This document shows positions 31,104 through 48,562 of a DNA stretch of 64,000 bases, one piece after another. This DNA comes from Psychrobacter sp. 72-O-c (GTDB taxonomy: Bacteria; Pseudomonadota; Gammaproteobacteria; Pseudomonadales; Moraxellaceae), in assembly GCF_904846605.1 (NCBI RefSeq), contig NZ_CAJHBI010000002.1, forward strand, positions 1 to 64,000. Direction: 5' to 3'. The translations under genes and the position numbers were made by a program. The notes beneath the pieces were generated by a model. That model searched no databases, was not told where the DNA came from, and worked only from the letters and a program-made list of their open reading frames with translations. The stretch's first letter is position 1; each line of letters begins with the position of its first letter.

Positions 31104-31361
31104 TTAAGTTTTAAATTTTACTGTACCACTAGTACCAGTCGCCATTGCATCGCGGGTTAGCTGATCTTCAGCATGGTTTTTAGCACTAATAGCATCAGGA
31201 TCGGGGCGACGTTCAATATGTCCGCACTGAGTGCACTCGATATATTCATCAGGCTCAGGCGTTACTATATTTACTTGCACCACTGAGTCCATTGTCTGAC
31301 ATTTAGGACAGCTGACCCCTGCTAAGAAGCGCCGTTTAGGCCGGCTAGATTGATAACGCAT
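31104..31361 (-). CDS. yheV: YheV-family zinc-ribbon protein
   Basis: The 85-residue protein has two CxxC pairs, CPKC (near residue 18) and CTQCGH (near 43), forming a putative zinc ribbon as in the DUF2387/YheV family. The order RRFLAGVSCPKCQTMDSV ... ECTQCGHIERRPD follows E. coli YheV. The function is unknown. Its start ATG overlaps the stop of prlC as TGATG, implying translational coupling, and the pairing with prlC is known in gammaproteobacteria. Confidence 0.8.
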   Translation of the reverse strand: MRYQSSRPKRRFLAGVSCPKCQTMDSVVQVNIVTPEPDEYIECTQCGHIERRPDPDAISAKNHAEDQLTRDAMATGTSGTVKFKT

Positions 31362-33583
31362 CAGCTGGCCTCAAGGTTAGTGTGTGCATCGCTGTTGTTA
31401 GAACTGGCAAAACCACTGTGACGCAATAAGGCATCGATACTGGCGCTACGACCCCGAAAATTCTCAAAATTAATTTTAGCGGGTAGGCTGCCACCAACGG
31501 ATAAAATGGTCTCGCGGAAGGCTTTACCCGTAGTAGGATTAAAGATACCTTCTTCTTCAAATTTACTGAACGCATCTGCTGACAATAGCTCCGCCCATTT
31601 ATATGAGTAATAGCCTGCTGCATAACCACCGGCAAAGATATGACTAAAACCATTAGCGAAACGGTTATAGTCGGGGGTTTCCATGATAGCAATGTTACTG
31701 CGCACGCTATCTAAAGTGCTGAGAATACCGTCATAATCTAGCGCTGGTGTGTGCGAATGAATCAGTAAGTCAAACAATGAAAGCTCAATTTGGCGTAGGG
31801 TTTGCATGCCGCTTTGGAAGTTTTTAGCCGCCAATAAGGCATCAAGCTTGTCTTTCGGTAGTGGCTCACCAGTTTCGACATGACTACTAATAAGCGCAAT
31901 ACCTTCAGCGTCCCAAGCCCAGTTTTCCATAAACTGACTGGGCAGCTCAACCGCATCCCACTCTACCCCATTGACGCCTGCGACATCGCCGACCGTCACT
32001 TGGGTTAGTAAATGGTGCAGACCATGGCCAAATTCATGAAATAAGGTCAGCACCTCATCATGGGTGAGTAGACTTGGCTTGCCATCAAGCGCTGGAGTAA
32101 AGTTACCCACCATAAAGCACACAGGTAGCTGATGATGGTTCTGTGCATCATGACTGTAACGCGACTGAAAACCATTCATCCACGCGCCACCACGTTTACC
32201 ACTACGAGCAAATAAATCAAAGTAAAAACCACCTATTAATGCATCGTTTTCATCGAATAGTTGATAAAAACGCACCTCATCATGCCAGCGAGATACTGCT
32301 GGAGCTTGTTCAGCTATGCCATCACTTTTTTGCTCTTGCTGTTGTTCCTTTACGGTAATGCCGTATAGGCGCTCAACAATGGCAAATAAACCATCAATTA
32401 CCTTTGGCAATGGGAAGTACGGACGAATCTCTTCTTGCGACAAGCTAAATTTGTCTTGCTTCACTTTTTCGGCAATATAAGCGCTATCCCATGGCTGTAA
32501 TTCGTTGATGCCATAATCTTTGGCGCTGTCTTGTAATTGTGCTAGATCTTGCTCGGCAGTAGGCGTGGCTTGAGTTGCCAGACTACGCAAAAAGGTTTCA
32601 ACTTCTGGCACACTATCTGCCATCTTAGTAGATAAAGACACTTCAGCATAATTAGTAAAACCTAGCAAATGGGCTTTTTGTTCGCGCAATTGCAAGATTT
32701 GGCTCATGATATCGGCATTATTTAAGGACTCGCCCTTAGCATTGGTATGGGAATCAAACTCGGAAGCGCGGGTCACATAAGCACGGTATAAGGTCTCACG
32801 TAACTCACGATTGTCCGCATGGGTCATGACTGCGATATAAACTGGAATATTTAAAGTGGCAACATAAAAAGGTTCGGGCAGCGCATAAATCTCTGTTTGC
32901 GTAAGCGTACCTTTTTCTAATGCGCTAGCTTTATACTGCTTACCTGCATCGGCTAATAAGTCAAAGCCACTATCGGTCAACCCTGCTAATTGCTCAGGCT
33001 TAAGAGGCAGCGTATAAGCTTGGGTTGCATCCAAAATATGATCTGAGAACGTCGCTGATAAGGTCGATAACTGACTTTGAATATCAGCAAATTTATCTTG
33101 TTCTGCTTTTGGTAATGCTACTCCTGATAACTCAAAGCTCTGTAGCGCCAATTCAATAGCACGCGCACGTGCAGAATCAAGCTGTGCTAAAAATACTTCA
33201 TCATTCACGATAGTTTTATAACGCATAAATAGTGGCTGATGTTGTCCAACACGAGTGCCATAAGCTGATAGCTTGGGTAGCAGTTCATGATGTACATGAC
33301 GAATCTCATCATTACTCATTACGCCATTAAGGTGCGATAAAATACCCCAGCTGCGATCTAGAGCTAGATTGATATGGTCAAACGCCATCACATCAGCTAG
33401 CGCTTGTTCCGCGCTTATTTCGCTACCAGTCTGCTTATCTTTGCTACCGCTATTTATTATTGCTGACAGCTCATCTAAAAAGGTATTGGCTTGATTGATA
33501 GCCGTAGTCACCTGCGCTTGTAGGTCGCTCGGAGTCGCAGTGGCAAAGTCAACAAGGTGCAAATCTGAAGCAAGAGTAGTCAT
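31361..33583 (-). CDS. prlC: Oligopeptidase A (M3 metallopeptidase)
   Basis: PrlC is a cytoplasmic zinc oligopeptidase that breaks down signal peptides and other short peptides. The catalytic motif is VLTLFHEFGHGLHHLLTQ, with a downstream Glu in GVNGVEWDAVELPSQ, and the family segments FGNFTPA-like VCFMVGNFTPALDG and YYSYKWAELLSADAF follow. At 740 residues it is longer than E. coli (680) because of a Gln-rich insert near residue 440. ATG at 33583 is taken; a TTG four codons upstream lacks a proper site. yheV follows with overlapping stop and start. Confidence 0.93.
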   Translation of the reverse strand: MTTLASDLHLVDFATATPSDLQAQVTTAINQANTFLDELSAIINSGSKDKQTGSEISAEQALADVMAFDHINLALDRSWGILSHLNGVMSNDEIRHVHHELLPKLSAYGTRVGQHQPLFMRYKTIVNDEVFLAQLDSARARAIELALQSFELSGVALPKAEQDKFADIQSQLSTLSATFSDHILDATQAYTLPLKPEQLAGLTDSGFDLLADAGKQYKASALEKGTLTQTEIYALPEPFYVATLNIPVYIAVMTHADNRELRETLYRAYVTRASEFDSHTNAKGESLNNADIMSQILQLREQKAHLLGFTNYAEVSLSTKMADSVPEVETFLRSLATQATPTAEQDLAQLQDSAKDYGINELQPWDSAYIAEKVKQDKFSLSQEEIRPYFPLPKVIDGLFAIVERLYGITVKEQQQEQKSDGIAEQAPAVSRWHDEVRFYQLFDENDALIGGFYFDLFARSGKRGGAWMNGFQSRYSHDAQNHHQLPVCFMVGNFTPALDGKPSLLTHDEVLTLFHEFGHGLHHLLTQVTVGDVAGVNGVEWDAVELPSQFMENWAWDAEGIALISSHVETGEPLPKDKLDALLAAKNFQSGMQTLRQIELSLFDLLIHSHTPALDYDGILSTLDSVRSNIAIMETPDYNRFANGFSHIFAGGYAAGYYSYKWAELLSADAFSKFEEEGIFNPTTGKAFRETILSVGGSLPAKINFENFRGRSASIDALLRHSGFASSNNSDAHTNLEAS

Positions 33584-34175
33584 AGAGATGTCCAATATTA
33601 ATGAATGATTCGGTTTACGATTGAATTATTATGTCGATGTTTGTATGTCGTGGTCTACTATTATGAAGGCCTATTTTTATAGACTCTAAATACTAACGAC
33701 TATCTAAAAGATGGGTATGGTTCGGTAAGAATGCAACCCAATAAAGCATAAGCGTTAACTTCATTTTGAAGTAATAAAAATTTCACGTCCTAGCTTTAGG
33801 AGGCCTACGTATTAAGCGTTGGTAGTCGAATTTATAGCTCTGCATGAATAACAGCAGTCCAGACGAGCGACTTTGCAAATACACAATTCTGAGTACCTTA
33901 CTTACAAAGCATCATCATTTGCTTGCAAACTACTCCTACAGCTAGCAAGGTGGAGTTGGTAGCATAGTATTGATCGAGTACAAGTAACCGAATAGTAGAT
34001 AGCATAATAAAAGACGGTCATTAATCTAGGTAATCAGATTAAGTAATCAAGTTTGTTGTTGTATTAGTTCCTGAATCTTGATTCCTGACCAAAAAAGCAA
34101 ATAATAAATTGTTAGTAACATCAAATCGTCATCTTTAGCTAAAGACAATAAAATATAAAATAAGGAGCAGTATTT
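33584..34175. other. 592-bp divergent intergenic region, Balon leader
   Basis: No ORF with a ribosome-binding site was found. Several short A/T-rich boxes (for example CATAAT near 34003) occur, and an imperfect inverted pair CTACTCC ... GGAGTTGGTAG lies near 33930-33963. A long untranslated leader for the hibernation gene is plausible but not demonstrated. Confidence 0.5.
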
Positions 34176-35288
34176 ATGAAAGCGACCCTCAAGAGTCTAC
34201 GTGAAACCAAAGCCAATCCAGCGGTAAGTATCTTCGTTAAAACCCACCGTGAGCATCCTGCCAGTGATAAAGACCCTATTGCTCTCAAAAATCAGTTGAA
34301 AGTTGCCGAAGACCGTTTGATTAACGAATACGATAAGCGTACAGCAACAACTATCCTAGATAAAATTCATGCCGAGCTAAACGAATTCAACCACAATTAC
34401 AACCTTGATACCTTGGCTATTTTTGCTAGTACTGATGATGTACAGGTCGTTCGTATGCCCATTGATACTACAGAGCGCGTTGTAATTTCTGATCGTTTTG
34501 CGACGCGTGATTTGGTACGTGACATGGCCAGTGCTGTCCATTTCTATACTGTGGTACTTACTCGTGATAACGCCCGCCTCATTGAAGCTTCCAATGATCG
34601 TGTTGTCAGAGAATTTAGTAAAGATGATGATATACAAAATAATATGGAAAGTATCGCCTTTCCTGTCGAAAATAACGGCCTATATACGACAGGTGATGGT
34701 GGCTCTGACCGCTCATCAAACAATGAAGACAGTTATTTAAAAGAGTTTTTTAATCAAGTAGACAAAAGCGTACAAGAGCTATGGGGCGAGCATAAGATGC
34801 CGCTCGTCATCGTCGGTGATGTACGCAATATCGGTTACTACAAAGACGTCTGCGACCGTCCAGAAAATATCATTGCGACGGTATCAAATGTTACTGAACT
34901 TGAAGATGGTAGCGCCCAGCATATCATTGATGGGGTACAAGAGGCCGTAGAAGGTTATCGTACCTCGCTACACCAAGCAGCAATAAGTGAGATCGATAAA
35001 GCTCGTGGCGCTGACATGTTACGTACCGACTTACAGGACGTTTACCGTGCGGCCTATCAAGGTGCTGGCGAGACGCTATATGTCCGTCGAGGTTATATCC
35101 AGCCCGCTAAAATTGACGAAAAAGCGCAGACTCTTATGGTCGTCGATGATTCAGCCGCAGATGGTGTCACAGATGATGCAGTTGGTGAGGTCATTGAACA
35201 CGTGATGCATAATGGCGGTGAGGTAGTATTCATGCCCCAAGACATTATGGCAGAAGATCAACCAATCGCTCTTGTGACCCGTTACTAA
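34176..35288 (+). CDS. balon: Ribosome hibernation factor Balon (bacterial aeRF1/Pelota homologue)
   Basis: I recognise this 370-residue protein as Balon, the aeRF1/Pelota-related hibernation factor first described in Psychrobacter. Balon enters the ribosomal A site, with EF-Tu, in cold or stationary cells and keeps ribosomes dormant. The sequence is an archaeo-eukaryotic release-factor-like protein of the baeRF group: an N-terminal alpha/beta domain (NPAVSIFVKTHREH, FNHNYNLDTLAIFAS), a middle domain (HFYTVVLTRDNARLIEA, IVGDVRNIGYYKD) and a C-terminal eRF1-3-like domain (MVVDDSAADGVT, GGEVVFMPQDIMA). No GGQ motif is present, as reported for Balon. AAGGAG precedes the ATG by 9 nt. Identity rests on memory of the family. 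Confidence 0.85.
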   Translation: MKATLKSLRETKANPAVSIFVKTHREHPASDKDPIALKNQLKVAEDRLINEYDKRTATTILDKIHAELNEFNHNYNLDTLAIFASTDDVQVVRMPIDTTERVVISDRFATRDLVRDMASAVHFYTVVLTRDNARLIEASNDRVVREFSKDDDIQNNMESIAFPVENNGLYTTGDGGSDRSSNNEDSYLKEFFNQVDKSVQELWGEHKMPLVIVGDVRNIGYYKDVCDRPENIIATVSNVTELEDGSAQHIIDGVQEAVEGYRTSLHQAAISEIDKARGADMLRTDLQDVYRAAYQGAGETLYVRRGYIQPAKIDEKAQTLMVVDDSAADGVTDDAVGEVIEHVMHNGGEVVFMPQDIMAEDQPIALVTRY

Positions 35289-35362
35289 TTGCTTGATGGC
35301 ATTGATTGAGTCACTTATTTTGACTTAATAAGTTATAAACGACAAATTCAGTATAATATCAG

Positions 35363-35395
35363 AGCATTGGTTCAATAAGAATCAATGCTTTTTTA
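35363..35395 (+). terminator. Strong terminator after Balon
   Basis: AGCATTGGTTC (35363-35373) pairs with GAATCAATGCT (35379-35389) with one wobble pair, followed by T. It sits 75 bp after the Balon stop and before the next gene's chosen start, so the two are separate transcripts. Confidence 0.9.
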
Positions 35396-35444
35396 CCTTT
35401 ATGTTCAACAACTGTTCCTTAATGCTATAAAAAGGATACCCACA

Positions 35445-36257
35445 ATGATTATTCCAAATAATGCTTTAGGTCACACAGTCAAAAGTGTGCAAGCCACTGC
35501 TTCGTTACTCTTACGCGGTGGACGTGGAGTTATGGGCACACCCAATCCTATACAGCCGGAGCAATCGTTAGTCTTGTACGAGCATGAAGCTTGCCCTTAT
35601 TCTCGCCGCGTACGCGAAGTCATGACTCGTCTCAATTTAGATTTTGAGAGTCGTCCTAGCCCGCATAAAGGCCATGTCTATCGTGATGAGCTGAAAGAGC
35701 TGGCGGGTAAAGCGCAAGTACCATTTTTGGTCGATGACAATACGGGTGATCAGATATTGAACTCACAAGCGATTATTAATCATTTGTTTTTGCACTATTC
35801 AAAATTTGGCGCACCACCAAAAAAATATCAAGGACCTATGGGCGATGACAACGCCACCCTTGTCAATAAAGCAACCAGTGTGGTCTCCATGATGCGCGGC
35901 GTCAAAGCAGATCACCCGAAAAAGAACCAAGCACGTGGCAAGCCTGAGAAACCACTACACCTGTACGGTTTTGAAGCCAGTCCATTCTGCCGTTTGGTAC
36001 GCGAAAAATTGAGTGAACTTGAAGTGGGTTATGTCAATCACAGTGTTGCACGTGAGCAGATACAAGACATCGGTGCGTTTGGCTTGCGTCTCAACGTCGG
36101 TAAATATCATCCTGTCAAAGGTGGGAAGCGCGAGCAACTTATGAATGGGATGATGAATGGCAAGCTACAGTTTCCTTACCTTGTCGACCCTAATACTGAT
36201 GCTGAGATGTATGAATCAAAAGATATTATTGATTATTTAGATGAGACTTATGGTTGA
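35445..36257 (+). CDS. Tandem glutaredoxin/GST-fold protein
   Basis: The 270-residue protein carries two GST-N/thioredoxin-like domains in tandem. The first (about 41-118) has LVLYEHEACPYSRRVRE with a CPYS redox motif and VPFLVDDNTGDQILNSQAII. The second (about 171-268) has LHLYGFEASPFCRLVRE, in which the first Cys of the pair is Ser (SPFC), and FPYLVDPNTDAEMYESKDIIDYL. No C-terminal GST helical domain is visible. It likely handles thiol redox or glutathione chemistry in the cytosol. The start ATG at 35445 follows AAAGGA; a longer frame from 35385 would cross the Balon terminator. Confidence 0.78.
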   Translation: MIIPNNALGHTVKSVQATASLLLRGGRGVMGTPNPIQPEQSLVLYEHEACPYSRRVREVMTRLNLDFESRPSPHKGHVYRDELKELAGKAQVPFLVDDNTGDQILNSQAIINHLFLHYSKFGAPPKKYQGPMGDDNATLVNKATSVVSMMRGVKADHPKKNQARGKPEKPLHLYGFEASPFCRLVREKLSELEVGYVNHSVAREQIQDIGAFGLRLNVGKYHPVKGGKREQLMNGMMNGKLQFPYLVDPNTDAEMYESKDIIDYLDETYG

Positions 36258-48012: not shown

Positions 48013-48255
48013 TTATGCATGCAAGTTGAATCCAATCGTCCGTCTAAATTAATCGCACTAACAAACATGATGCTAATGGATAGGACTAACTGGAGTGTTG
48101 GGTGCCACTTATTATTAACCGCCATACTCTTTATTAACTAGCTCATTAACCAGCGAATTACTAACCGGCGAACTGTAGCTATTAAAACAGAGCTAAAGAG
48201 TAGTTCTAATAATAAGGCATTTCTGCGCGCCCGTTGCAAGACAATAACATCAGCT

Positions 48256-48365
48256 CAGACTTCCCTGCGTCGGTACTAACCGCATCAGGTTCGGCGGGTG
48301 GTTTCTCAGCGAATATATAGTGACTGCTTATAAATCAGTCATTAATACATCGCACCCCGAGTCTG
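48256..48365 (-). promoter_or_regulatory. TPP (THI-element) riboswitch of thiC
   Basis: On the minus strand the outer stem P1 pairs CAGACT (48360-48365) with AGTCTG (48256-48261). The conserved core strings are present: CTCGGGGTG near the 5' side, CTGAGAAA near 48305, ACCTGAT with GCGGTTAGTACC, and GACGCAGGGAAG at the 3' side. These are the standard TPP riboswitch elements. The remaining 47947-48255 and 48366-48562 are non-coding leader and spacer. Confidence 0.93.
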
Positions 48366-48562
48366 TCAGTGTTGTAAATCAACTTCATACTAGCAAACTT
48401 CCGACCTGACTGCTAATGATATTCGGCCATATTTATAATCATTTGAAATCTACAGATTTATTAATATTGTTTAGCTAAATTATTCAATGGTATTCGATTT
48501 TAGATCGGCTAATCAAGGTTAGTTTACTAACATGAAGATGCTTTCGCCCTTACTACTGCTTT

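Follow-up and report, generated by a model that had tools for sequence, protein, structure and literature searches.

The 64,000-nt window analysed here, a stretch of a Psychrobacter sp. 72-O-c contig (NZ_CAJHBI010000002.1), almost certainly carries the gene for the Psychrobacter Balon, a ribosome-silencing stress protein that would be made from a transcript of its own, with the promoter and terminator proposed below (Table 1). The ORF at 34176-35288, which runs over 370 codons from an ATG to a TAA stop at exactly the coordinates given in an earlier note on this sequence, is an ortholog of Balon (AOC03_06830) from Psychrobacter urativorans; the Balon protein itself is already known, and this ORF is a confirmation rather than a discovery. 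When PDB chains were searched with phmmer, the best match was the P. urativorans Balon chain 8rd8_B (E = 1.5e-205, residues 1-370), with 8rdv and 8rdw alongside it and the other three matches at E values of 0.31 or worse. Across the full length, 307 of 369 residues are identical to 8rd8_B (83.2%), spread over the thirds of the protein (101/118, 100/117, and 106/135 residues). Thus, the two proteins differ at 62 of the 369 aligned residues and by one single-residue gap (370 versus 369 residues), and P. urativorans Balon (PDB 8RD8, 8RDV, and 8RDW; NF052287) shares with the window protein its genus, its fold, an HP pair (H27-P28, identical in 8rd8_B), and the lack of GGQ and NIKS.

Profile searches agreed with this assignment. 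The window protein scored 515.9 bits against NF052287, the NCBIfam equivalog named ‘AOC03_06830 family ribosome hibernation factor’ (cut-off 330), in a match spanning residues 5-370 and profile positions 1-361 of 361. The earlier note had proposed a likely Balon family member, to be supported by a near-full-length, high-identity match to known Balon; the alignment to 8rd8_B over residues 1-370 is such a match and, along with the NF052287 score and the fold described below, upholds the proposal. The same note had also named best hits to unrelated baeRF/VLRF proteins with no Balon-like contacts as grounds for refutation; a match to a baeRF family is no such ground, because Pfam baeRF_family3 (PF18845) itself contains the window’s Balon ortholog (108.9 bits, gathering cut-off 31.5). 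This Pfam entry is a sequence family with no shown function of its own, and covers relatives in other genera; matches to baeRF families 6, 7, 8, and 11 fell below their cut-offs. Separately, the solved Balon chain 8rd8_B is labelled ‘Methyl-accepting chemotaxis protein’ in the PDB, which is misleading for automatic annotation.

Table 1. Location and basis of the features assigned in and around the Balon gene
Feature	Position	Strand	Basis
prlC, upstream divergent neighbour	31361-33595	-	
29-bp element, CTTACAAAG-N4-ATCATTT-N-CTTGCAAA	33901-33929	+	One copy in each of 51 of 60 genus genomes
Predicted extended -10 core, TGGTAGCAT (TGnTAnnnT)	33957-33965	+	Fixed 27 nt behind the element
Ribosome-binding site, AAGGAG	34162-34167	+	Sequence
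Balon gene, 370-aa ribosome hibernation factor	34176-35288	+	PDB identity, NF052287 score, fold match
HP pair H27-P28, taken as the Balon HP motif	34254-34259	+	Sole HP in the protein
Flexible loop of the middle domain, residues 170-180; candidate lasso loop replacing GGQ	34683-34715	+	pLDDT under 50
Beta-hairpin of the C-terminal domain, residues 311-322; candidate EF-Tu-side insertion	35106-35141	+	Model strands
Intrinsic terminator, a hairpin of 13 pairs with a T tract behind it	35361-35395	+	Fold and conservation

NF052287 matched all 60 sampled genus genomes, at one locus each and above the cut-off in 59, with one genome (G032) yielding only a partial match (profile 1-165). Some loci carried disrupted reading frames, reflecting either true disruption of the gene or misassembly: one is in two pieces with internal stops (G059:C1:827099-828149), and those at loci L096 and L107 read for 35 aa and 53 aa, respectively, before a stop. 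Across the family sample, NF052287 matched 92 of 199 genomes (89 above cut-off) from 5 of 16 genera; in the class sample, baeRF_family3 matched 16 of 185 genomes (11 above cut-off); and in the order sample, the Psychrobacter profile matched 7 of 194 genomes, five of them in this genus, including the genome that holds the window. The latter has a single baeRF_family3 match, and its nearest relative locus (L029) encodes a Balon that is 98.6% identical. The genome that holds the window also encodes one RaiA/HPF-type protein, i.e., the type of Balon’s partner in P. urativorans. Unlike the many Balon genes that adjoin raiA or sit in stress operons, according to passages of PMC10901736, the window gene is found in neither setting, and the RaiA/HPF-type gene lies on a different contig.

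Next, we evaluated how the gene is delimited, counting neighbours and terminators at the 30 best-scoring loci of the 60 genus genomes. The gene prlC was upstream and divergent at all 30. Downstream of Balon, a 13-pair hairpin (35361-35391) is followed by T’s, and the segment 35355-35400 has a folding energy of -15.7 kcal/mol (z = -5.1), a stability that none of 200 shuffles reached. Hairpins of -14.9 kcal/mol or lower preceded a T run within 150 nt of the stop at 29 of the 30 loci (L005 being the sole exception), a count made without a shuffle control. A plain scan of the region for terminators returned 2 sites against 1.5 (sd 1.1) in shuffles, no better than chance, so that the terminator owes its weight to fold and conservation and not to the bare scan. 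The strong terminator that the earlier note had placed at 35363-35395 is therefore borne out, and its reading of Balon as a separate transcription unit gains support from the divergent prlC, a conserved promoter-like site between the two genes, and the terminator downstream. Taken together, these features support a predicted transcription unit that comprises Balon alone and is driven by a promoter of its own.

The ORF downstream of Balon (35385-36257) encodes a Glutaredoxin/GST-N double-domain protein (Pfam GST_N_3, two stretches), and a glutaredoxin/GST-like gene was found downstream, within the fetched flank, at 3 of the 30 loci. As called, this ORF begins inside the Balon terminator hairpin. 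The ATG at 35445 corresponds to the first ATG of the same downstream gene in L029, and is likelier than 35385 to be the start.

The promoter-like site comprises a 29-bp element and a downstream core. At up to 3 mismatches, the element occurs once in the genome that holds the window; one copy each was also found in 51 of the 60 genus genomes (reversed control, 0), and, when coordinates are compared by eye, each of these 51 sits upstream of the gene, on the same contig and strand as Balon. Family-wide, among 198 genomes from 16 genera, the element was detected in 55, all of this genus, and in none of the other genera. Across 81 rows, i.e., the window and 80 named loci, it is present within 4 mismatches in 71 (exact in 55) and missing, at more than 4 mismatches, in 10, which correspond to locus L113 of another organism and nine Psychrobacter-labelled loci whose Balon is 69-79% identical to the window protein. 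Since these 10 rows do have Balon, a Balon gene can do without the element.

Exactly 27 nt separate the element from the start of the core TGnTAnnnT in 70 of 71 loci, and 26 nt in the remaining one. Because the sequences share descent, the element and core counts do not represent independent events, and the argument instead lies in a contrast with the less conserved flanks: among 69 unique rows, column identity is 0.99 at the T, G, T, A, and last T of the core, and lies in the range 0.4-0.8 for most of the 15 nt preceding it. The conserved positions of TGnTAnnnT are those that an extended -10 promoter needs, and they would place the Balon transcription start near 33972. A generic promoter scan returned 8 sites versus 6.0 (sd 2.1) expected, an uninformative result, and the proposed Balon promoter was not among them. 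A structured leader RNA was considered and dropped: the element lies anywhere from 160 to 541 nt ahead of the ATG in the 71 rows, and conservation in front of the gene is poor among the positions listed. At gathering score, Rfam matches in the window were limited to two tRNAs and a TPP riboswitch, the latter on the minus strand at 48245-48369 (60.8 bits against a gathering score of 54.3).

The element may instead serve the divergent prlC, which we regard as the less likely reading. The element does sit between two genes that adjoin each other at all 30 loci examined, no genome was found that has the element with prlC and Balon separated, and on the minus strand 33 of 69 unique rows share one offset for TAnnnT. 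However, on the plus strand 68 of the 69 rows do so, a difference that favours a promoter towards Balon, and the full TGnTAnnnT, which holds a single plus-strand offset in all but one of 71 loci, does not recur on the minus strand (no offset has it in more than 1 of 71).

The element itself suggests a predicted activator site, as it contains two copies of CTTRCAAA, spaced by 21 bp and located about 45-70 bp ahead of the proposed transcription start. We tentatively put forward, as a possibility, that in most Psychrobacter Balon is under a dedicated switch, in which an activator would bind the near-invariant, once-per-genome 29-bp site and turn on the extended -10 promoter. The putative activator is perhaps a response regulator binding the CTTRCAAA direct repeats, whose spacing of 21 bp amounts to two helix turns. 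If this is true, the 29-bp element would decide the timing of Balon-type ribosome hibernation in Psychrobacter. The conserved promoter and element offer a handle on which signal turns Balon on. Searching the own genome for further sites (CTTRCAAA-N13-CTTRCAAA, up to 2 mismatches) gave 18 matches versus 10 in the reversed control, with the Balon site alone exact, and hence no regulon is proposed. BfmR was considered as a candidate regulator of the element and dropped, since its motif in P. aeruginosa consists of CGTAC repeats according to passages of PMC10924945, and the passages of PMC4888885 on A. baumannii contain no binding motif. The words ‘promoter’ and ‘upstream’ are absent from the main text of the Balon paper (PMC10901736), and among open-licence PMC papers we found no title on a Balon promoter or upstream control in Psychrobacter. 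The conserved promoter element is a modest addition, not found in print by the literature searches made.

The predicted structure of the window protein provides a second line of evidence for its identity. A first AlphaFold2 prediction, from 24 close relatives, was poor (pLDDT 57.9) and was superseded by one built on 38 sequences, down to 19% identity and chosen for diversity from all loci, which reached a pLDDT of 87.0 and a pTM of 0.76. In the Foldseek ranking, chains of P. urativorans Balon took the first three places (TM 0.90-0.92 by query), and the mycobacterial Balon chains the 4th, 5th, and 9th, among archaeal and eukaryotic release factors. When the Foldseek rows were realigned, the six Balon chains came out on top (Z 43.0-44.2 and 21.2-26.5), with aRF1 next at Z 18.1; the model superposes on 8rdw, 8rdv, and 8rd8 at Z 43-44, with an rmsd of 2.1-2.2 over 359-366 residues. 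The mycobacterial proteins Msmeg1130 (8V9J, 8V9L) and Rv2629 (8V9K), which passages of PMC10901736 report as shown to bind ribosomes and inhibit translation, thus have a fold like that of the window protein (Z 21-26), but only 13-15% identity to it, and have a separate NCBIfam model, MSMEG_1130 (NF052288).

The model also aligns with aRF1 and eRF1 chains over residues 1-370, in agreement with the three aeRF1-like domains noted earlier, and the window protein shares the three-domain fold of aeRF1/Pelota, with the aligned aRF1, eRF1, and Pelota rows at 11-18% identity. That it is instead a bacterial aeRF1-type factor releasing or rescuing stalled ribosomes, as a peptidyl hydrolase or in the manner of Pelota, is nonetheless highly improbable and was rejected: the fold is common to aRF1/eRF1 (Z 18 for 4af1, lower for others), and for the baeRF-1 clade passages of PMC6514570 consider both ribosome rescue and blocking of the A site during translational shutdown, but GGQ is absent from the 370-aa protein, as the earlier note had claimed, NIKS is likewise not found, and the proven Balon is a far closer match. 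Two of 81 relatives contain a GGQ string; it occupies residues 347-349, within the C-terminal domain and away from the catalytic place.

Given 83% identity and the same fold, the window protein very likely has the same function as P. urativorans Balon, for which passages of PMC10901736 describe occupancy of the A site in cold-shocked and stationary cells, in part alongside EF-Tu. Balon is described there on two kinds of ribosome, vacant ones with RaiA and ones that contain mRNA and peptidyl-tRNA. According to these passages, A-site binding and a knockout phenotype were shown for Balon orthologs in Psychrobacter, and a P. arcticus strain deficient in Balon was constructed. An earlier computational proposal had held most baeRF-1 proteins to be non-catalytic, to insert into the A site, and to be linked to hibernation factor genes (passages of PMC6514570). 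By homology, ribosome binding, partnership with EF-Tu, and a stress role would extend to this copy. Upon cold shock or starvation, the protein and EF-Tu(GDP) would most likely enter the ribosomal A site jointly, and the N-terminal domain of Balon would contact the decoding centre via the HP motif without touching mRNA. The middle domain, which lacks GGQ, would occupy the peptidyl-transferase centre and hold it in an inert state, with the C-terminal domain facing EF-Tu, so that vacant and mid-translation ribosomes would be silenced alike. The protein would be produced from a single-gene transcript that starts at the extended -10 promoter, behind a conserved site putatively bound by an activator, as read from sequence alone, and that ends at the intrinsic terminator.

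Some of the contacts described for Balon have candidate counterparts in the model. Passages of PMC10901736 describe a lasso loop that wraps around A2602, a ‘bL27 trap’ in which the tail of bL27 is held, a beta-insertion of the C-terminal domain that bears on EF-Tu, and an HP motif, called distinctive, that contacts the decoding centre. The loop at residues 170-180 is the sole stretch of the model with pLDDT under 50 and may represent the lasso loop, while predicted strands 311-314 and 319-322 form a C-terminal hairpin that may represent the EF-Tu-side insertion. From being the only HP present, we infer that H27-P28 is the HP motif of the Balon paper. Of 81 loci, made up of the window and 80 named ones, 80 retain this pair; the one that lacks it is L096, whose reading frame is broken. 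Two alignments were used, one of the window and 23 of the 30 genus loci (A1) and one of 38 diverse family rows (A2); in the latter, residues 27-28 read HP in 25 rows and FP in 8. The HP pair is therefore not universal in the wider family, and the decoding-centre contact may differ in relatives with FP instead of HP.
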